Assembly: GCA_020348925.1 (NCBI GenBank) | Contig: CP070758.1 | Location: 4,794,221-4,827,114 of the forward strand | Length of the DNA: 32,894 nt | Source: Gemmatimonadota bacterium | GTDB lineage: Bacteria; JBHIER01; G020348925 | Direction of reading: 5' to 3' | Shown here: positions 2,585-19,497 of the stretch, in pieces | Position numbering within the stretch: position 1 is the first letter of the stretch | Layout of the letters: the number at the start of each line of letters is the position of its first letter | Made by a program: the position numbers and the translations under genes | Notes under the pieces: generated by a model | Told to the model about the DNA's origin: nothing | Database searches by the model: none | Seen by the model: the letters and a program-made list of their open reading frames with translations, nothing else

Positions 2585-2818
2585 GTGAGAGGGGATTGTT
2601 TCACGGAGATTTCTTTCGGTTTACCAAAGAATGCGAAGGTTATACTTACAGTCTATAATATTCTGGGGCAAGAAGTGGCAGTGTTGGTTGACGGTGATCT
2701 AAATGCCGGTCACCACACAGTGAACTGGAATGGTGAGAATGCCACCAGCGGCGTCTACTTCTATAGGATCGAGGCGAACGAATTCACGGCCACGAGACGG
2801 ATGGTGTTGATGAAATAG
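2585..2818 (+). pseudogene. Orphan C-terminal sorting domain (T9SS type A / FlgD Ig-like) remnant
   Basis: The frame reads TEISFGLPKNAKVILTVYN, then LGQEVAVLVDG, a WNGENATSGVYFYRI core and a basic RRMVLMK tail before the stop. This is the usual C-terminal secretion or sorting module of large exported proteins in FCB-group bacteria. Only this last domain is present. The possible GTG at 2585 has no passenger domain behind it and is preceded by a hairpin at 2565-2585 (CTCCCCTT/AAGGGGAG) that looks like dispersed-repeat debris. The original terminator still follows at 2841. I read it as the 3' remnant of a deleted secreted-protein gene; expression as a 77-residue peptide is possible but unlikely. 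Confidence 0.65.
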
Positions 2819-3131: not shown

Positions 3132-3209
<78 letters not shown>

Positions 3210-3404: not shown

Positions 3405-5696
3405 TTATTCCCAGGCTTTCTGGACTATGCGGCCTTCAAGAATCATTTGCTCCGTCAGAAGCGGTAGGGCCTGATCTTGGTCTCCCATGACCAGTTTGTA
3501 TTCGTCGGCGAATGTGTTCTGCTCCCCTTCGTTGGAATAGGGGAGAACAAAGAAGACCCTTCCGTCTTCGTTCGATTTTAGGAATTGAATGTAGGGGAAC
3601 GTCCGGCCGTGCGGCGTATGGATGTTTGTGGAGAGTATGACTTCGGTGTGGGGGGGCAAGCGTGTCACCTCAATTCGGGCGCCGCGGACGTATTCAAAAA
3701 GCTTGATGCGGGCGACGTTTGGTTCGCTCAATGTTTCATCCCGGCCACGGCTCTCTGCGACGAGGCGCAATCGAGCCAGAGGGGGATAGTACACCTGGTT
3801 CTGCACATCGATGAAGGAGCCGCCATAGCGCCAGACGAGGCGGTATAAGACCGTCGGGAACATGCGGGGGGCAAAGACGATTCGGCCGGTGTTCGGGTCA
3901 AAATCCGAAACGTAGGCGAGCATGCTTTTATCCAGGATCATACTCTGATACATACTCGGCAGATCCTGGCAGAGGATATAACGGACTCTGTTTTCATCCA
4001 AAAAACGGTACGCGTCGGTGTTCTCTGTACTGAAGAAAAACCGGTTCAACCGACTCAGGTCGGTGGCGTGCTCGCCGAAATTGTCGGCCAATACCGGCCA
4101 TTTACCGTAATACTTGATGTAATGCCCGAGATTCCAATCGCTGAGGACCCCATAGTCTGGGGGCGCATGAGACCGAAGGGAGAGGGCGTCGGAAGGACGA
4201 TTCTCTTTCAAGTATTGTAATATGGGCTTGGTTTCTCTGTAAACCGCAGAAGTGATATCCTGGCCGCCGAAGGATTTCGTACACGGGTAATACGATACGA
4301 GGAGACCTGCGACAAGGAGAGGAATGACAAGCCATTGAAACGGCAGCTTTTTGTATGTCCAGTTTATGAGGGAAACCAACATCAGACCGTAGAGGATCGC
4401 CAGGTATGGAAGGAAGCGGACTTGGAACAGGCCAAAAGCGGCAAAGATGATGGTTACCACAAACAGGATTTTTTCGTGCGCGTTGAGCCGGGACCAACGG
4501 GAGACCATTACGATCCAGACGATGGGGAGCAGGAGAATTGCCCAGGACATGTATTGGCCGAGTTCATCAAAGGCTCTGTCCCATGAGGTTCTGAGCAGGG
4601 AATGGCTCTCTGCGATCTGGGCCTGCCATCCTGTCCACGTTCGCAGCAAATAGGTTGTACCGATGAAAATTTGTTTGAGAAGAAAGAGCGTTAGGACCAC
4701 GGTCAGGGTCGCTGTCGCAGCACAGGATGCGTACTTCGCATAACGGGGGAATTTCGGATGGGACGCGCCTGACAACCATAGGGTGAAAAAGAAAAGGGAC
4801 ATGACCAAAAGGACCATCGATTGAAAAAGACCGTAATGGGTGTGGGCCAACGGCACGCCCCGAAGGTGATAAAAGAGGCCGAAGGGTAGCGTCGTCAAAA
4901 AACCGGTCCCGTTGACCGCGACGCCAAAAGCCCACAAATGAGACCGTGTGGTCTTGCCGGCAAATGGCAGCAAACTCAGAAGAAAAACTCCTTCGAGGAG
5001 AAGCAGACCGTGCTGAACCAGCAGCCCCAGGCCGAGACAGATGCCCGGAAGGGTCCAGTTCCATTGGAAGTTCTTTTTACGCCGGATGGTTGGGAGGCTT
5101 TTCATAAGACTGGCTACGAATAGAGCGACATACAGAAGTTCGGCCGCGTGATGGTCCAACTGTCCCACATAGCTGTAATGGATGACAATGGGCAAGACCG
5201 CCGGAGCGCACGCTGCGAGAAAGGCGTTCCACCTCTTTCCGGGCCAAAATCGAAGTCCCATTGTGTAGACGACGAGAGCTGTTGCACAAAAGAGCAAAAG
5301 CGGGAGAAAGAGGAGACCTCCGGGAGGCGACGTGTGTCCCGGAAAGAGACTGAGAAAACCCCAGACGCCGGTGAGAAGGAGATCATACAGCGGTGGCCAA
5401 ATGATGTATGCCCCGAAGGGATGATTCATGTATGAGTCGAAGACAGGGATATCGGGGAAGGAGTGCATGATCAACTCCGCCCTCCGGAGATGGTAGCAGG
5501 CGTCCGGGTCCCTGATGACTGGATCCCCGCCGGTGAAGGTCATAGCGTAGTAAGGAAGAACGCGCAGTCCGAGGGAGATGACGAGGAGGGCTGCGATGAA
5601 AGGGAGATGTTGAAGAACCTTCGAGCGCTGTGAGGCACCGCGAGGGTCCGAGCTGTCGCGAGGTGCGGGGTGATTCTTATCTCTTTTTCTTGTCAT
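3405..5696 (-). CDS. STT3/PglB/AglB-family oligosaccharyltransferase-like membrane protein
   Basis: A 763-residue multi-spanning protein. The first loop has the DPDACYH motif (residues 63-69), matching the first acidic metal-binding motif of STT3 proteins. The LDHHAAE motif (180-186) matches the DHH signature. QIAESHS (about 360-366) matches the TIxE/SVSE loop. The first part of the soluble C-terminal domain has SDWNLGHYI followed by LADN (519-538), at the place of the WWDYG acceptor-binding motif. Such enzymes transfer a glycan from a polyprenyl carrier to protein on the periplasmic face. I chose ATG 5696, which has an AGAAGGA site upstream; an in-frame GTG at 5720 has none. It lies 62 bases after an SMR-type membrane protein gene and is last in the smpB run. 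The acceptor motif is non-canonical, so the acceptor could differ from the Asn sequon. Confidence 0.85.
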   Translation of the reverse strand: MTRKRDKNHPAPRDSSDPRGASQRSKVLQHLPFIAALLVISLGLRVLPYYAMTFTGGDPVIRDPDACYHLRRAELIMHSFPDIPVFDSYMNHPFGAYIIWPPLYDLLLTGVWGFLSLFPGHTSPPGGLLFLPLLLFCATALVVYTMGLRFWPGKRWNAFLAACAPAVLPIVIHYSYVGQLDHHAAELLYVALFVASLMKSLPTIRRKKNFQWNWTLPGICLGLGLLVQHGLLLLEGVFLLSLLPFAGKTTRSHLWAFGVAVNGTGFLTTLPFGLFYHLRGVPLAHTHYGLFQSMVLLVMSLFFFTLWLSGASHPKFPRYAKYASCAATATLTVVLTLFLLKQIFIGTTYLLRTWTGWQAQIAESHSLLRTSWDRAFDELGQYMSWAILLLPIVWIVMVSRWSRLNAHEKILFVVTIIFAAFGLFQVRFLPYLAILYGLMLVSLINWTYKKLPFQWLVIPLLVAGLLVSYYPCTKSFGGQDITSAVYRETKPILQYLKENRPSDALSLRSHAPPDYGVLSDWNLGHYIKYYGKWPVLADNFGEHATDLSRLNRFFFSTENTDAYRFLDENRVRYILCQDLPSMYQSMILDKSMLAYVSDFDPNTGRIVFAPRMFPTVLYRLVWRYGGSFIDVQNQVYYPPLARLRLVAESRGRDETLSEPNVARIKLFEYVRGARIEVTRLPPHTEVILSTNIHTPHGRTFPYIQFLKSNEDGRVFFVLPYSNEGEQNTFADEYKLVMGDQDQALPLLTEQMILEGRIVQKAWE

Positions 5697-5758
5697 ATGT
5701 TCCTTCTTCTCCGGATACACGATAGGAGGCGTAGAACGGAGTCCATTGGTGTTTGAAC

Positions 5759-6124
5759 CTAACTTTTAAAGATGAGACAGAGTCCGACAACGACGGTCAA
5801 CGTTCCCAGAACTCTCAAGGTGGACAGATGCTCCTGAAAGAGCCAGTAGGAGAGGAGCATAATTAAAATATAGCCTAAACTCAATACAGGATAGGCGTAA
5901 CTGAGATCGACGCGCGACAGAGCGATGATCCAGAAGAAGGCACTTATTCCGTAAAGGAACAGTCCGAGGATAATAAACGGATTCGAGAAGGCGTGATAGA
6001 CGGTCGCAAAGATTTTGTTCATGTGAAGGTCGAGAGGACCTCTAACGAGAGCGCCCTTTTTTATACACAGCTGTCCAATGACATTGAGAAGGACACTTAT
6101 CAGGACGTACCAGAGATGACTCAT
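5759..6124 (-). CDS. SMR/EamA-type four-helix membrane protein (possible lipid-carrier flippase subunit)
   Basis: 121 residues with four hydrophobic helices. The third and fourth carry the family-like DLSYAYPVLSLGYIL and GTLTVVVGLCLIF. The size and the YPVLS-type motif resemble small multidrug-resistance proteins and the ArnE/ArnF subunits that flip aminoarabinose-phosphoundecaprenol. A GAGG site lies 8 bases before ATG 6124. It is 52 bases after rdgB and is followed by the STT3-like gene, so a role in moving a polyprenyl-linked sugar is attractive. That role is inferred from context; a drug or polyamine exporter cannot be excluded. Confidence 0.75.
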   Translation of the reverse strand: MSHLWYVLISVLLNVIGQLCIKKGALVRGPLDLHMNKIFATVYHAFSNPFIILGLFLYGISAFFWIIALSRVDLSYAYPVLSLGYILIMLLSYWLFQEHLSTLRVLGTLTVVVGLCLIFKS

Positions 6125-6176
6125 TTCATAAACCTCATCTTCAATGATCGAAGGGCTTTCTTGCCTCGATCTGTAG

Positions 6177-6797
6177 TCAACGGTTGTGGTGCTTCTTTGA
6201 CCTGTTCTCGAAAGTCTCTGTCAAGAGTTTTTTGGCCAAGGCAAGCGCTCTGGCCCGGTGGCTTATTCGGTTCTTCACCGCCTCTCCCAATTCGGCGAAG
6301 GTCCTGTTGTACTCGGGGACGATGAAGAGAGGATCGTACCCGAATCCGGCAGTACCCCTCGGTTCACAGGAAATAATACCCTCGCATGTCCCTTCGACCG
6401 TTCTGGTCGTCGCTCCGGGTTGCGCCAGGGCGATGACGCAGCGGAATCGAGCTTGGCGCCGACTGTTGGGGACTTCTTGCATGAGATAAAGGACCTTCCT
6501 GATGTTATCCTCATCGCTGCATTGAGGTCCGGCAAAACGTGAGGAGAGAACACCGGGACGTCCGTTTAGGGCCTCAATTTCCAGACCCGAATCATCAGCC
6601 AAGACCGGGAATCGAACTTCTTTGCAGACGATCTCGGCTTTCTTTATTGCGTTCTCGTGGAACGTTTTACCGTCTTCAACGATCTTGGGAAGGGACGGAT
6701 AATGGGCGCAGGAATGAATATCGAGATGGAGATCCTGGAGAATACTCTTCATCTCCTGGATTTTCCCTTTGTTCCGTGTGGCTAATATCAGTTTCAT
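6177..6797 (-). CDS. rdgB: Non-canonical purine NTP pyrophosphatase (RdgB/HAM1, XTP/dITP diphosphatase)
   Basis: 206 residues, the normal length. It begins with [16 protein letters not shown], the nucleotide-binding N-terminus of the family. DDSGLEIEALNGRPGVLSSRF follows, then AGFGYDPLF and SHRARAL near the C-terminus. The enzyme hydrolyses dITP, XTP and ITP to the monophosphates and so keeps deaminated purines out of DNA and RNA. Its ATG overlaps the rph stop by one base (TAATG), so the two are translationally coupled, a common pairing in bacteria. Confidence 0.95.
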   Translation of the reverse strand: MKLILATRNKGKIQEMKSILQDLHLDIHSCAHYPSLPKIVEDGKTFHENAIKKAEIVCKEVRFPVLADDSGLEIEALNGRPGVLSSRFAGPQCSDEDNIRKVLYLMQEVPNSRRQARFRCVIALAQPGATTRTVEGTCEGIISCEPRGTAGFGYDPLFIVPEYNRTFAELGEAVKNRISHRARALALAKKLLTETFENRSKKHHNR

Positions 6798-7519
6798 TAC
6801 GTGTGAACCTGGAGGGCCTTCCGCTGGCTTTCGATGATCTCTTTGATGCCTTTTTTGGCCAGTGCGAGGAGGCTTTTCATTTTCGCTTCCGAGAAAGGTT
6901 CTTTCTCCGCTGTCCCCTGAATTTCGACAAATTTTCCAGAACCGGTCATAATGATGTTCATATCCACATCAGCATGGGAATCCTCGCTGTACGTCAAATC
7001 GACGTACGGGACGTCTCGAACGATACCGACGCTCACGGCCCCAACGAAATCAGTAATGAGTCCGGCTTCGATCAATGTGTCGCCCCCGATGAGGCGAAGT
7101 GCATCGTACAGAGCCACAAAACCGCCCGAAATCGAAGCGGTTCGTGTACCGCCATCGGCCTGTATGACGTCGCAGTCAATAAAAATGGTTTGCTCACCTA
7201 AGTAGGTGAGGTTCGTGACCGCTCTCATGGAACGTCCGATGAGGCGCTGGATTTCGTGAGTCCTGCCGCTCACACGCCCTTTCGTTGATTCGCGGATGAT
7301 GCGTTTATCGGAGCTGCACGGTAACATTCCGTATTCAGCGGTGATCCAGCCTTGATTCGATCCGCGCAGAAACGGTGGGACTCCCTCTTCAATACTGGCT
7401 GAACAGATCACCCGGGTCTTGCCCACCTCGATGAGGGCTGATCCCCTCGCATTCTGAAGATAATTTCGTCGGATCGTAATCGGCCTGATCTCGTCAGGCG
7501 CTCTTTTGTCGTTTCTCAT
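6797..7519 (-). CDS. rph: Ribonuclease PH
   Basis: 240 residues, full length. The N-terminal [14 protein letters not shown], the GRSMRAV segment and the [19 protein letters not shown] phosphorolytic core are family hallmarks. The enzyme removes 3' nucleotides of tRNA precursors by phosphorolysis. An AAGGA site lies six bases upstream of ATG 7519. The start overlaps the murI stop by four bases (ATGA) and the stop overlaps the rdgB start by one base. Confidence 0.96.
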
Positions 7520-8394
7520 AAGATGTCCTTTTTTGGATTTTCGTACTTTTCAATATCGACACGTTCCACCGACCCCAGTGAATTCCCGAGAAATCGCTCG
7601 GCCACCTCTCGAAAGCGGTGGGGCACATCACTCACATAATAGGTTCGTCTTGCATCCTCCCTGTGACGGCGGAGCAATTCTCTCTTTTGGAGAAGCGCAC
7701 GGAGTTCTCTGGCCGTCTCTTCAGCCGAGTCGATAAGAGTGATATCCGGACCCATAACCTTGGAGATGACGAGTTTCAAGAGGGGATAGTGGGTGCACCC
7801 GAGAATGAGGGTATCAATGTTCTGTTTTTTGAGAGGGGTCAGGTATGCCTCGGCAATGAGAAGGGTTGGGCGACGATCGACCCAGCCTTCTTCTGCCAGG
7901 GGGACGAAGAGGGGACACGCTTGTCCGAAGACTTTGAAGGTACTCCCGTGCCGGCGAATGGCTTGGTGGTAAGCCTCACTTTCAATTGTGCCCACAGTGC
8001 CGATGACCCCGATTTTTCCCGTCTTGGTCGTTTGAACGGCTGCCTTTACTCCGGGTTCGATAACGCCCATGACAGGCACAGGCATATGCTCCTGGACGGT
8101 CTGCAGAGCGACAGATGAGGCCGTGTTGCAGGCGATCACGATTGCCTTAATACCCTCTTCCAAAAGAAATTGAGAATTTTGCAGAGCGAACCGTCTGACG
8201 AGTTTTTCTGATTTGGGGCCATAGGGAACCCTGGCGGTATCTCCAAAATAGACCGTGCTCTCGTGAGGGAGGATTCGATGGATCTGTCTCACCACGGTGA
8301 GACCCCCGATGCCTGAATCGAAGACCCCGATCGCTTTCCGCGGGTCGCCTTTCTCAACTAAATTTTCCTGAAAATTACTGGGGTTCCTTGGCAT
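7516..8394 (-). CDS. murI: Glutamate racemase
   Basis: 292 residues. [18 protein letters not shown] near the N-terminus, [11 protein letters not shown] with the first catalytic Cys and [11 protein letters not shown] with the second are all present. The protein makes D-glutamate for peptidoglycan. It lies 23 bases after the cell-wall amidase gene and overlaps rph by four bases. The ATG at 8394 has only a weak ribosome site, so translation may be coupled. About 20 residues precede the conserved core, slightly more than usual, so a later start is possible. Confidence 0.96.
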
Positions 8395-8417
8395 GTGATT
8401 GGATTTTTTCGGTGAAA

Positions 8418-9974
8418 TTACATTGTGCTTTCGTATTTCGTCTTAAACCTTTGTATCCCATTGTAAATAGCTTCAGCGATCTTTTGCCTGAATCTTTTTT
8501 CTTTCAGAAGCTTCTCTTCATATGTGTTGGAGATGAAAGCGATTTCTATCAAGACGGCAGGCATTTTGGCGCCCACGAGGACAAAGAAGCCAGCCTGATC
8601 GACGCCGCGGTTTTTGATGCCCAAATTCAAATCCATGTCCGTTTGAATGGATGCAGCCAGATCCTCACTCTCCTTCAGAAATGAGCTCTGGAGCATGTCA
8701 CTGACGATATCCCTGAGGACAAAATCTTCGTCGCTGAGCTCGGTCGCTCCAGAGGCATACTCTTCTTCAAACTTGAGAGCCGCGTTTTCGAGCATAGCCA
8801 CGGCCCGGGCTTCATCGTTTTTCGCAGGAGAGAGAAAGAACGTTTGACATCCTCCAACCTGTCGACGCTTCGCAGCGTTCGCGTGGATGCTGATAAAGAG
8901 ATCAGCCCCGGTGCTGTTGGCAATTTCGGTGCGTTGTTGAAGAGGAATGTAGGAATCGTCATCGCGAGTAAGAATGACATTTACCCCCAGATGTTTTCGC
9001 AGCAGATTGGCCAACCGCTTCGTGACGTCCAGTACAATTTCCTTCTCTTTGAGCCCTGTCGGTCCTGTTGCGCCAGGATCTTTTCCGCCATGACCGGCAT
9101 CGAGCACGATGAGATCGAAAAGAGCCAGATTTTGATTTGGCTTCAACTCCGAGGGGAAGTCATTTTTTTCAGATCCGGATGCGTCGTTGCCCTGAGATTG
9201 TCGCAGGAGGATGACGATTTCACTGGGATCCTCCCTCTGAAACACCTTGTAATCGCTGGGGACCTTTGATAATTGCATGGAGATTTGACACGATGCACCA
9301 AACTGATAGGCTCTCACTTTTGTCACGCACCCTACTCCCGATGAAGAAGAGAACTGTTCGGGGTCAAGCCTTCCCCCGAGTATCGTCACGTTGAGCCAGT
9401 TGGAAGGGCCCAGGGCGTGCTCGATGGAGAAGGTCTCCAGGGCAGAGACCGTGATTAAAGTCCCGTTGCTTTTGGATTCTATCGTCATGTCGGTGATGTT
9501 GAGACCGGGGGAGAGGATTTGGAGTCGTTTCTCGTCTTGGTTCCACGAGAGCCATCCAGGCAGGGCATTGTCCAATATGCGGCAGAACAACTGTACGGGC
9601 ACCCAGACCGCTCCTTCGCGATAGAGTGTCTGCAAGGGCATATGAAAAGCTTCTCTGTCAATGACAATGTCCGAATGGGAGAGGGTGAACGTGATCACGT
9701 GGCCGCTAAATTTCAGATCCATTTTTTTCTTTTCCGATGACCAAAATTGTTTGGCCCACAAAACGTTCGCCAAGTCATTTACTGATACATACAGAATCGA
9801 GTTGAGCTCGATGGTGCGCATATGATCTTGAATTTGGCCGTTTTTCGAAAATACGGGAATGGAAGAACCCCAGAGAGGGCAGACTGCGGTTAACAGAACA
9901 CCAAGACCTCCGAGAAGGGGGATTATTTTTGATCCCAAGTATTTAAATATATTTGTCTTGAAACTATGAAACAT
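8418..9974 (-). CDS. N-acetylmuramoyl-L-alanine amidase (stalk domain + AMIN + Amidase_3)
   Basis: 518 residues. A hydrophobic segment at about 15-35 serves as signal or anchor. About 45-150 look like the copper-amine-oxidase N-terminal (stalk) domain ([23 protein letters not shown]). An AMIN-like beta domain follows (about 155-255), and the C-terminal catalytic domain starts near 285. It has the zinc ligands of Amidase_3: [12 protein letters not shown], the Glu in LKEKEIVLD and the His in SIHANA, plus the catalytic Glu in [10 protein letters not shown]. It should cleave the amide bond between muramic acid and L-Ala during cell separation. Its start overlaps smpB by 11 bases and murI follows. 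Confidence 0.93.
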
Positions 9975-10416
9975 ATTTGCCCTTGAACTCTCTTTCCATC
10001 TCTCTCTTGGTGTCTCGCTCCATTATTGCCCGTCGCTTATCATACTCCTTTTTGCCCCGAACCAACGCCAGTTCAATCTTTGCGTTTCCTCTGTTGAAGT
10101 AGATTTTCAAGGGGACCAAAGTGAGTCCCTTCTCCTGAACTTTTCCCAGGAGTCGTCGAATTTCAAATTTATGCAGAAGTAATTTTCTCTTCCGTTTTGG
10201 ATCTGGATTGTATCTGTTTCCCTGCTCGTAAGGGCTGATATGCATCCCGTAGAGGTATACTTCTCCGTTTTCGACTCGGGCGTAACTTTCCTTTAAATTG
10301 GCACGTCCCATGCGGAGCGCTTTTACTTCGGTTCCCGTCAGGACAATCCCTGTTTCGAAAGACTGCACTATGTAATAATCGTGTCTTGCTTTCCGATTTG
10401 TAGCTATGATCTCCAT
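9964..10416 (-). CDS. smpB: SsrA-binding protein SmpB
   Basis: 150 residues, the normal size. [12 protein letters not shown] near the start, [25 protein letters not shown], and a basic C-terminal tail ([16 protein letters not shown]) are the family signature. SmpB binds tmRNA and brings it to stalled ribosomes. It is the first gene of the long minus-strand run. The ATG at 10416 has a GAGGAGG site five bases upstream, and a promoter lies at 10439-10467. The tmRNA gene itself is not in the window. Confidence 0.97.
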
Positions 10417-10527: not shown

Positions 10528-10612
10528 GCCGAAGTGGTGGAATTTGGTAGACGCGCTGCGTTCAGGGCGCAGTGCCCGTATGGGCGTGGGGGTTCAAATC
10601 CCCCCTTCGGCA
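10528..10612 (+). tRNA. tRNA-Leu (anticodon CAG)
   Basis: A class II cloverleaf. The acceptor GCCGAAG pairs with CTTCGGC. The anticodon stem CTGCG/CGCAG carries the loop TTCAGGG, giving anticodon CAG. There is a long variable arm (TGCCC-gta-TGGGC) and a GGTTCAAATCC T-arm. The 3' CCA is not encoded, since discriminator A is followed by CTC. A terminator follows directly. Confidence 0.96.
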
Positions 10613-10617
10613 CTCTG

Positions 10618-10654
10618 AGAGAGGTCATTCGACGCGATCATGGCCTCTCTTTTT
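10618..10654 (+). terminator. Rho-independent terminator after tRNA-Leu
   Basis: AGAGAGGTCAT (10618-10628) pairs with ATGGCCTCTCT (10640-10650; one G-T pair) and is followed by TTTT. Confidence 0.85.
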
Positions 10655-10922
10655 CATCAAAAACTTCTATGTCACAGTCTCACAGCATATTAGAATTTAG
10701 AGGCATTGAATTCCAACAGTTTTTCTTATCGAAGAACAGGGTGCATTTTATCTTTCATCCTGTGTGCGCTTCGAGAAGAACAGTAGCCTTTTCCTGGTTC
10801 GACCCACGATCACCCTTCGGGATATTTCATGGGTTCTCAGGTGTCGTCAGGGTGGACCAGGAGCTCCGTCCGGGAACTTAATACCGAATACGTCAGTGTT
10901 CAGCTCGATATGGAGGATATGA

Positions 10923-11711
10923 ATGCTGAAGAAAATTGAATTTAGCAACGAAGAAATTCGAGAGATTGATACCTACTGTCGATGTATGGACAAGAGTTTT
11001 CCCCATGACTATTTTAAGGCCAAGCGCAAAGGAACACAGAGATTTACAAGTATCCTGCGTTCTTACGTTTACGCTTTATCCATCTGTAGCAGTGAGACCA
11101 AATTAAAACCGAGAACCATGGGCAGGGAAGTGGTCAAGGGAAAACTGAAAGAGTTCGTGAGCAAAAAGAATTGCGAAATAGATACCAGCCTGGTGAAAAA
11201 CGTTATTTTGAATATTATGAAGGAAAAGAATATCATCGAGGCTCACGGATTGTGGATTCCCCTCCAATCCGTCTATTCGGGGGATCTTATCTCTGCGTTG
11301 AACGATGCTCTGCCAAAGTACTCCAAACCGAAGGAGTTGGAGCGTTTTGACCGGGATGAGATGATTATAAAGGAAGCCTTTTCTCATATTGAGAGAATTT
11401 TTAAGAAGGAAAAGATACATCGAGCGAAAATTAGTGAGAGACGATTCGAAGCCCTTTTAAAGAAATATAGAAAGACCGAGATTCTCAGAGCATTTTCCAA
11501 TAATGTTAAAAAGATTCTTCAGTATTACGATCAGCGGAAAGAGAGTGAGGAACGCTCAAACTTCTTGAGAGAAATCTGCTCGAGGCCTACGTTGAAATCA
11601 CTTACTCCTGAAGAAATTGACAGGTTGGCTCAATACGGATACAAATTCCGGATCATCGAGAAAGGGAAAAAGAGCGAACGGATCGTTATTACAAAAAAGA
11701 GGCAACGGTGA
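10923..11711 (+). CDS. Hypothetical lysine/glutamate-rich protein
   Basis: 262 residues that I do not recognise. A GGAGG site lies about six bases before ATG 10923. The product is charged and probably helical, with no signal peptide or membrane segment. A possible nucleic-acid-binding character is suggested by many Lys and Arg, especially in the middle (residues about 150-215) and at the C-terminus (GKKSERIVITKKRQR). The gene is visibly richer in A+T than its neighbours and stands alone on the plus strand between tRNA-Leu and the convergent skp gene. That fits a recently acquired or lineage-specific gene next to a tRNA. No function is offered. Confidence 0.7.
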   Translation: MLKKIEFSNEEIREIDTYCRCMDKSFPHDYFKAKRKGTQRFTSILRSYVYALSICSSETKLKPRTMGREVVKGKLKEFVSKKNCEIDTSLVKNVILNIMKEKNIIEAHGLWIPLQSVYSGDLISALNDALPKYSKPKELERFDRDEMIIKEAFSHIERIFKKEKIHRAKISERRFEALLKKYRKTEILRAFSNNVKKILQYYDQRKESEERSNFLREICSRPTLKSLTPEEIDRLAQYGYKFRIIEKGKKSERIVITKKRQR

Positions 11712-18121: not shown

Positions 18122-18180
18122 AGATTATTATTATGAAAATTAGTTTAGCTTCCAAGAAAAGAAGAACAGAGGAGGGTACA

Positions 18181-19497
18181 ATGCAGAGGAAGAGCATCTC
18201 AACCAGGCACATGCTCCTTTCACTCATAATTGTTACATGTCTTTCTTCAAGAACGCATTCTCAGATCCGTTTCACTGAACACGTCATTGCAACCAACTAT
18301 ACCACTGCATCCTATGTGTACGCCGCTGACCTGGACAAGGACTATGACATTGATATTTTAGGCGCCTCACGTGGTCTGGAACATCAAAGCTGGTGGGAGA
18401 ATGACGGACACCAGAATTTTACTGAGCATATTTTAGACGATACTTTCCCTAGTTCGAATTGTATATTGGCCGTGGATTTAGACCAGGACGGAGATGAGGA
18501 TATCTTGGCTTCAAGCAGTGCCGACAATTTCATAAAATGGTGGGAAAATGATGGCACTGCGACGTTCACGGATCACGTCATTACGGATGCGTTTTCCTCC
18601 GCAATGGGTGTTTTCGCCATCGATATGGACAGTGACGGCGACATCGATGTCATTGGGGCCTCTCGTAGTCGTAGAGCAGTGCACTGGTGGGAAAACGACA
18701 GAAACCAGAATTTCACCGAACATGCCATTTCGGATACTATCAGTTCACCCTACGACGTTTTTGCTTGTGATCTTGACGGAGACGACGATATTGACGTAAT
18801 TGGAACCAGCCAAAACAAGCATTCCCATGTCTGGTGGGAAAACGACGGCAGCGAGATCTTTACGGAACACGTGTTCGCCTCGAATTACGGCACCTGTGAT
18901 TATTTCGAAGCCGCCGATGTGGACGGTGATGATCGACTGGATATCGTCGGTGCCTCGTTCGGCTCCGGTGGCGTGACCTGGTGGCGCAATGAAGGGAATA
19001 AGACTTTCACGCAAAGAACAATTTCCGAGACCTTCCCCTCAGCCGGAAAGGTGCAAGCCGTCGATCTGGATGAGGATGATGACATGGATATCGTTGGTGT
19101 ATCTTACAGTATGAATACTGTTGCCTGGTGGGAGAACGACGGAGGTGAGAACTTTACTCAGCATACGATTTCGGATAGCCTTGTCGGTCCTTGGCATCTT
19201 TTTGCAACTGACATAGACGGGGATAACGATATCGATATGCTGGTCAGTGGATTTGGGTCCGATCAGATCGTATGGTTTGAGCACAGTACGTCAAGCCGAA
19301 CGAGGGGAGATACGAACGGAGATTGGGATGTCGATCTTTTGGATGTCATAACAGCGGTAAACCATATTTTAGAAATTTCGATCCTTGAGGGGGATGACCT
19401 CTGGGCGGCCGATTGCAGCGACGACGGGGAAATTGACCTCCTTGATCTCATTGGTATTGTGAATGTGATTTTGGGAATCGGAAATTGTGAACCTTGA
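18181..19497 (+). CDS. Secreted seven-repeat FG-GAP/VCBS-type propeller with C-terminal dockerin
   Basis: 438 residues from ATG 18181, chosen for its GAGGAGGG site; a longer frame from 18133 has none. Residues 1-27 are a signal peptide ending THS. Seven repeats of about 49 residues follow. Each has a calcium-loop-like D-x-D-x-D-D-x-D segment (ADLDKDYDIDILGAS and variants) and a WWENDG turn, then FTEH, which predicts a seven-bladed propeller. The last 65 residues form a type I dockerin-like pair of EF-hand motifs: GDTNGDWDVDLLDVITAVNHIL and ADCSDDGEIDLLDLIGIVNVIL. Dockerins bind cohesins, which suggests attachment to a scaffold or surface protein. It lies opposite in strand between mcsB and clpC, with its own terminator. 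Confidence 0.88.
   Translation: MQRKSISTRHMLLSLIIVTCLSSRTHSQIRFTEHVIATNYTTASYVYAADLDKDYDIDILGASRGLEHQSWWENDGHQNFTEHILDDTFPSSNCILAVDLDQDGDEDILASSSADNFIKWWENDGTATFTDHVITDAFSSAMGVFAIDMDSDGDIDVIGASRSRRAVHWWENDRNQNFTEHAISDTISSPYDVFACDLDGDDDIDVIGTSQNKHSHVWWENDGSEIFTEHVFASNYGTCDYFEAADVDGDDRLDIVGASFGSGGVTWWRNEGNKTFTQRTISETFPSAGKVQAVDLDEDDDMDIVGVSYSMNTVAWWENDGGENFTQHTISDSLVGPWHLFATDIDGDNDIDMLVSGFGSDQIVWFEHSTSSRTRGDTNGDWDVDLLDVITAVNHILEISILEGDDLWAADCSDDGEIDLLDLIGIVNVILGIGNCEP

Follow-up and report, generated by a model that had tools for sequence, protein, structure and literature searches.

The N-x-S/T sequon is treated as a near-universal rule of oligosaccharyltransferases, read by the WWD of the WWDxG motif. 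These residues are reported to hydrogen-bond the hydroxyl of the Ser/Thr at position +2 (PMC7226087), a +2 Ser/Thr pocket is likewise described in PMC8342417, and mutations in WWDYG are reported to abolish N-glycosylation in known enzymes (PMC2952790). In A. fulgidus AglB, D47, D161 and H163 are given as the metal ligands, and E360 belongs to the TIAE motif (PMC8342417). Homologues of AglB in bacteria and variants of WWDxG in archaea are already known. The former are placed inside the euryarchaeal AglB clade as a result of transfer (PMC4973528), and the latter have been reported (PMC5131992); the accounts available from these two sources describe no group-wide loss of WWD in bacteria. Small flippases also occur with related transferases. 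The SMR-type flippases ArnE/ArnF act on glycolipids, and lipid SMRs are described as often having Asn at the position of the Glu of drug-type SMRs (PMC9574504).

Herein, we analyzed a locus of a Gemmatimonadota bacterium within a window (the whole stretch of DNA under analysis) of 32,894 nucleotides. It encodes an AglB-like protein in which the counterparts of the catalytic residues are retained and the first Trp and the Asp of WWD are replaced. In the open-access literature searched, we found no description of a whole group in which the catalytic residues are fixed while the WWD positions have become free to vary.

Results

Gene organization of the locus

The host genome is a single contig of 5.04 Mb, 96.3% complete, and the sampled relatives have only the domain in common with it. 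The gene of interest (3405..5696, (-) strand) was assigned as an AglB/STT3-like GT-C transferase of 763 aa from Pfam, NCBIfam and the AlphaFold2 fold. A longer ORF, 3405-5720(-) with a GTG start, would give 771 aa, 8 aa more than the 763-aa form. Translation more probably begins at the ATG at 5696, which is preceded by a purine-rich GAAGGA-like site (by eye). The gene for an ArnF-like SMR/EamA small membrane protein of 121 aa (5759..6124, (-)) lies 62 nt upstream of this ATG. Further upstream and co-directional are rdgB (6177-6797), rph (6797-7519), murI (7516-8394), an amidase gene (8418-9974) and smpB (9964-10416), all on the (-) strand, and tRNA-Pro(TGG) (3132..3209, (-)) is downstream of the STT3-like gene. 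From smpB to the STT3-like gene, the direction is the same throughout and the gaps are short. A consensus scan placed promoter-like sites on the (-) strand before smpB, inside the STT3 gene and before the tRNA, the total number of sites being 9 vs. 5.9 in shuffles. An earlier note on this DNA had described the gene as standing at the end of a housekeeping run without other glycan genes nearby. The family matches of the run bore out the first point. For the second, the window ORFs tested against Pfam and NCBIfam gave no glycosyltransferase family match except the STT3-like gene itself.

Three other features of the window were recorded. An FG-GAP repeat protein is encoded at 18133-19497 (+), with a C-terminal dockerin match below threshold. 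At 10528-11711 (+), on the strand opposite to the neighbouring genes, tRNA-Leu(CAG) is followed by a 262-aa ORF without a Pfam or NCBIfam match; this is possibly a small insertion. At about 2600-2815 (+), the reverse strand, read by eye, would specify a C-terminal sorting domain of the FlgD-like/T9SS type.

Family assignment and predicted fold

The 763-aa protein matched Pfam AglB_L1 (PF18079; 9.2e-12, 45.3 bits, cut-off 23.6), indicating that the AglB long peripheral domain is present (3423..3683, (-)). It also gave a Pfam AglB_core-like match (1e-8) and a match to the archaeosortase-associated NCBIfam family archaeo_STT3, TIGR04154 (233.6 bits, 5e-69), which was below the 450-bit cut-off. 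The match to Pfam STT3 (PF02516) reached 22.5 bits, below the cut-off of 24.5, and no other STT3-type gene was found in the genome with this profile. The AlphaFold2 model, made from 45 input sequences, had a pLDDT of 88.1 and a pTM of 0.90 and contained both the GT-C transmembrane domain and the C-terminal globular domain. The top four Foldseek matches in the PDB were all A. fulgidus AglB. In VIA-align, A. fulgidus AglB scored Z 36.0 over 658 residues (3waj) and Z 34.2 over 709 residues, nearly full length (7e9s); the scores of other folds were about 28-33 for eukaryotic STT3, 24.1 for PglB (5ogl), 23.8 for ArnT (5f15) and 23.4 for DPY19. Judged from sequence and model, the gene encodes a full-length AglB/STT3-type GT-C protein, in agreement with the bacterial STT3-type identity proposed earlier. 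A structure prediction had been suggested as a check on that proposal; the model has the acidic and metal-site residues and lies closer to AglB than to GT-C folds with non-protein acceptors, and a fold alone shows no function.

A. fulgidus AglB-L (3waj, 7e9s, 5gmy) shares with the window protein the whole-length fold, the AglB_L1 peripheral domain and the DxD, DHH and TIXE-Glu elements. The two proteins differ in the TIXE motif, which is QIAE in the window protein. For the second signature residue of the DK or MI motif (Lys or Ile), no Lys could be assigned, the helix region being too variable to align well. Campylobacter-type PglB has the GT-C fold, the DxD and the TIXE-type active site in common with the window protein.

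Relatives, controls and tree

TIGR04154 was matched at E <= 1e-10 in 19 of 386 genomes, the host genome included. An alignment-based scan of named genomes, with a DxYYHxRR stretch as the pattern, yielded 67 loci from 77 pattern matches. The bacterial loci came from Myxococcota and other Deltaproteobacteria, Acidobacteriota, Planctomycetota, Omnitrophota, Binatota, Lentisphaerota, Oligoflexia, Schekmanbacteria, Fischerbacteria and others, and the scan also returned euryarchaea. Residues were counted over 55 bacterial rows, of which 53 are distinct (the identical pairs L007/L039 and L014/L062 are each counted twice), and over 15 archaeal rows. Fragments, rows with frame problems and overlong rows were dropped from these counts and from the tree (L018, L030, L056, L067, L071, L075, L076, L090, L095, L099 and L100). 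Among the dropped rows, the archaeal L067 and L076 have WWD, and the bacterial L018 and L030 lack the first Trp. The relatives L010, L020, L021, L022, L023, L025 and L028 were also outside the counts and the tree, for which rows were trimmed at 1000 aa.

Controls were drawn from the same genome sample: of 15 bacterial PglB-type proteins chosen, 12 were used, and all of these (12/12) carry WWDYG or WWDFG. L119 was not recovered, and L109 (the L022 gene) and L130 (a weak 588-aa match) were left out. Since these two lack WWD, the control set is partly motif-chosen, although the tree still joined the 12 in one clade with a support of 100. The archaeal rows also formed one clade (support 98). The window protein paired with L036 of Candidatus Fischerbacteria (support 86, not starred). 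As regards a single origin of the bacterial rows, the quick tree implies 3 changes, of which the starred branches force only 1, and many branches are long. A tree of STT3 homologues had been proposed as a check; in it, the window protein fell with the AglB-like proteins and not on the branch of Campylobacter-type PglB.

Conservation of the catalytic residues

The counterparts of the catalytic residues were assigned by motif and alignment rather than from superposed coordinates. D65 of the first DxD-type motif, DPD (codon at 5502..5504, (-)), is the counterpart of AglB D47. The second motif, DHH (D181-H182-H183, 5148..5156, (-)), corresponds to the metal ligands D161/H163, and the TIXE-type motif of external loop 5 (Q360-I-A-E363, 4608..4619, (-)) corresponds to TIAE with E360. 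The match of D65, D181, H183 and E363 to the AglB residues indicates that the acidic and metal site is intact. Among the bacterial AglB-like rows, D65, D181 and E363 were invariant (55/55 each), H183 was found in 50/55 and R427 in 53/55. The archaeal rows gave 15/15 for D65 and E363 and 14/15 for D181 and H183. When the 679 columns were ranked by entropy over 56 rows (the 55 bacterial rows and the window protein), the columns of D65, D181, H183, E363 and R427 all stood at about the 3rd percentile or lower. The conservation of D65, Y68 and H69 among the scanned loci is partly built in because DxYYHxRR was the scan pattern; that of D181, H183, E363 and R427 is free of this bias. By motif register and not by superposition, we take H525 to be the equivalent of PglB Y468 and R427 that of PglB R375, an assumption that carries no weight in the argument.

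Variation at the WWDxG position

The motifs DPDACYH, LDHHAAE, IAES and SDWNLG, named in the earlier note, were all present in the translated ORF. At the WWDxG position (S519-D-W-N-L-G-H525, 4122..4142, (-); motif alignment), the window protein has Asp for the first Trp and Asn for the Asp; the second Trp and the Gly are retained and are followed by His. A Blastocatellia relative (L055) has the identical DWNLG letters. The protein therefore departs from WWDxG, the criterion for a canonical N-x-S/T oligosaccharyltransferase, and we filed it as AglB-like within the STT3 superfamily and not as a canonical sequon enzyme. The altered motif had been presented as unusual. It is real, but it is the norm among bacterial relatives: the full WWD and the first Trp were each found in 0/55 rows, and the Asp was found in 14/55. 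WWD was present in 8 of the 15 archaeal rows, and the first Trp was missing in 6. Archaeal AglB proteins with SSWSYG, SLWYWG or SKWDYG in place of WWDYG were seen in Methanothrix and others (L053, L073, L094, L080, L083 and L088). The columns of the first Trp and the Asp ranked at the 73rd and 61st entropy percentile, both above the median variability, whereas those of W521, G524 and H525 ranked at about the 6th, 3rd and 5th. This pattern indicates a release of the +2 readers and not a general decay. Given that the catalytic columns are fixed and WWD is absent from all 55 rows, bacterial AglB-like proteins of many phyla appear to have kept catalysis and dropped the +2 readers. The retention of WWD in the PglB-type controls shows that the loss marks the AglB-like bacterial rows and not bacterial oligosaccharyltransferases at large. 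The His after the Gly, present in 48/55 bacterial rows, was considered as a feature new to these rows and rejected; the motif of A. fulgidus AglB-L is WWDYGH (3wai), so that Gly-His is common to both proteins and the difference lies in WWDYG vs. SDWNLG.

The protein could still be an ordinary N-x-S/T oligosaccharyltransferase in which other pocket residues bind the +2 Ser/Thr and drift of WWD is tolerated. The second Trp (48/55) and the Gly (51/55) are conserved, which argues that the pocket is still maintained, and the Asn that stands in place of the Asp could still form a hydrogen bond with a hydroxyl. Absence of the first Trp in archaeal rows and the WWDxG variants reported in archaeal paralogues (PMC5131992) are consistent with such tolerance. 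However, WWD was kept in every member of the partly motif-chosen control set, and the variability of both reader columns would not be expected of positions that still read this hydroxyl. We consider this explanation rather unlikely. The suggestion that acceptor recognition may differ is a fair inference from the intact acidic and metal site and the non-canonical WWDxG.

The neighbouring ArnF-like gene

The upstream small protein had been likened to ArnE/F and regarded as paired with the transferase. The likeness held in part: the protein matched NCBIfam ArnF (NF002816) with 60.2 bits, below the cut-off of 99, and also matched ArnE, EamA and SMR families. It resembles the ArnE/ArnF flippases in the ArnF profile match, in the lack of the central Glu and in being a singleton (the only copy found in the genome; next match E 6.7). 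It differs from these systems in scoring below the ArnF cut-off and in that no arn genes were seen beside it. At the position of the central Glu of drug-type SMRs, located by eye, it has Asn; 8 aligned SMR homologues, with L143 set aside, also lack that Glu, and the Asn is not conserved among them.

As for the pairing, only adjacency was supported. A profile search with positive controls found an SMR gene at 0/67 other AglB-like loci, 37 of which had more than 3 kb on both flanks, and tblastn at the 67 loci returned, apart from the copies of the window itself, a single weak match in archaeal L088 (E 0.044). An ArnF-like match was present in 13 of 38 genomes and was not seen beside the STT3 gene, as judged from the STT3 flanks. 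We therefore rejected SMR-STT3 as a generally conserved module, and the idea of a paired flippase is weak because the pairing was seen nowhere else. In the genome of L057, an ORF near the ArnF-like SMR gene (L143) reads by eye as a GtrB/Dpm1-like GT2, which suggests a three-component system there.

The adjacency bears on a second explanation, namely that the protein is a GT-C transferase with a non-protein acceptor (an envelope glycolipid or polysaccharide), similar to ArnT, and that the ArnF-like SMR is its donor flippase. The sole SMR copy found in the genome is adjacent, ArnT is among the next-best folds, and small flippases (ArnE-like or SMR) are described with GT-C transferases in three-component systems (PMC11127046). 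The window resembles those systems in having a small flippase-like protein beside a GT-C transferase, but it has no adjoining GT2 polyprenyl-phosphate-sugar synthase, and its transferase is AglB-like. In addition, AglB scored at least 10 Z units above ArnT with matches that extend over both the C-terminal core and AglB_L1, the Glu of the TIXE-type motif does not vary, and no SMR pairing was found in the other genomes examined. We regard this explanation as unlikely.

Glycan genes near the relatives and donor pathway

The neighbours tested at bacterial relatives were mixed and mostly unrelated to glycans, with glycan-type neighbours at L035, L039, L062 and L091. At L035, the AglB-like gene stands in a run with a GT4-family phosphosugar transferase, a PMT_2 protein and a GT1 (L035:363-10783), and a GFTLIE-type pilin-like gene follows 72 nt further on. 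L039 and L062 have a GT2 beside the AglB-like gene, and L091, a myxococcotal MAG, has tandem STT3/AglB-like genes (5589-7703 and 7884-10196). For L036, which stands closest to the window protein in the tree, the single tested neighbour of the AglB-like gene was not a glycan gene. We base no claim about the acceptor on nearby GFTLIE-type pilins; one occurred within the available flank at 4 bacterial loci (L035, L048, L091 and L101) of the 67 scanned, possibly by chance.

In the host genome, the only PNPT-family enzyme found adjoins a MurF-like ORF and reads by eye as MraY. The donor-pathway candidates are therefore limited to a single full WcaJ/WbaP-like protein and a second match, which was weaker.

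Discussion

From the sequence family, the predicted fold, the catalytic residues and the group-wide loss of WWD, we infer an active extracytoplasmic AglB-like oligosaccharyltransferase with a relaxed or rewired acceptor choice, to which we give about an even chance; the acceptor could be non-protein. The enzyme would act at the outer face of the cytoplasmic membrane, with a metal ion bound by D65, D181 and H183, and E363 of the TIXE-like loop would complete the active site. The acceptor, most likely an exported protein, would lie along this loop and receive a glycan from a polyprenyl-phosphate carrier. The loop would frame the peptide, and reading of the hydroxyl would be slight or altered. 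Since the first Trp and the Asp of WWD are replaced, as in the other bacterial AglB-like rows, the choice of acceptor has probably been relaxed or rewired. That the gene is a decaying copy of STT3 or an inactive one, as the single copy, the 18-30% identity to 14 relatives and the lack of adjoining glycan genes might suggest, is highly improbable given 763 open codons, intact catalytic residues, a complete and confident predicted fold and conservation of the same residues across the group.

The weakest part of the oligosaccharyltransferase proposal concerns the donor, which the adjacent ArnF-like SMR protein may supply as an undecaprenyl-monophosphate glycan, a suggestion drawn from adjacency in one genome. 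The monophosphate donor reported for A. fulgidus AglB (PMC8342417) and the ArnE/F chemistry described in PMC9574504 would fit it.

A wider claim is possible, though tentative: bacterial AglB-like transferases of many phyla, with their active site intact, may glycosylate exported proteins without the N-x-S/T rule, either at Asn by main-chain framing alone or at another residue. Asn-2 of the Halobacterium S-layer protein is a reported precedent for Asn glycosylation without Ser/Thr (PMC2952790). If the claim is true, these enzymes would be a bacterial counterpart of that unexplained Ser-independent glycosylation. Catalysis and sequon reading come apart in a natural group whose catalytic site is kept while its WWD readers vary. 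The group is a ready set of enzymes for probing the need for the hydroxyl rule and a source for wider acceptor choice in glycoengineering.
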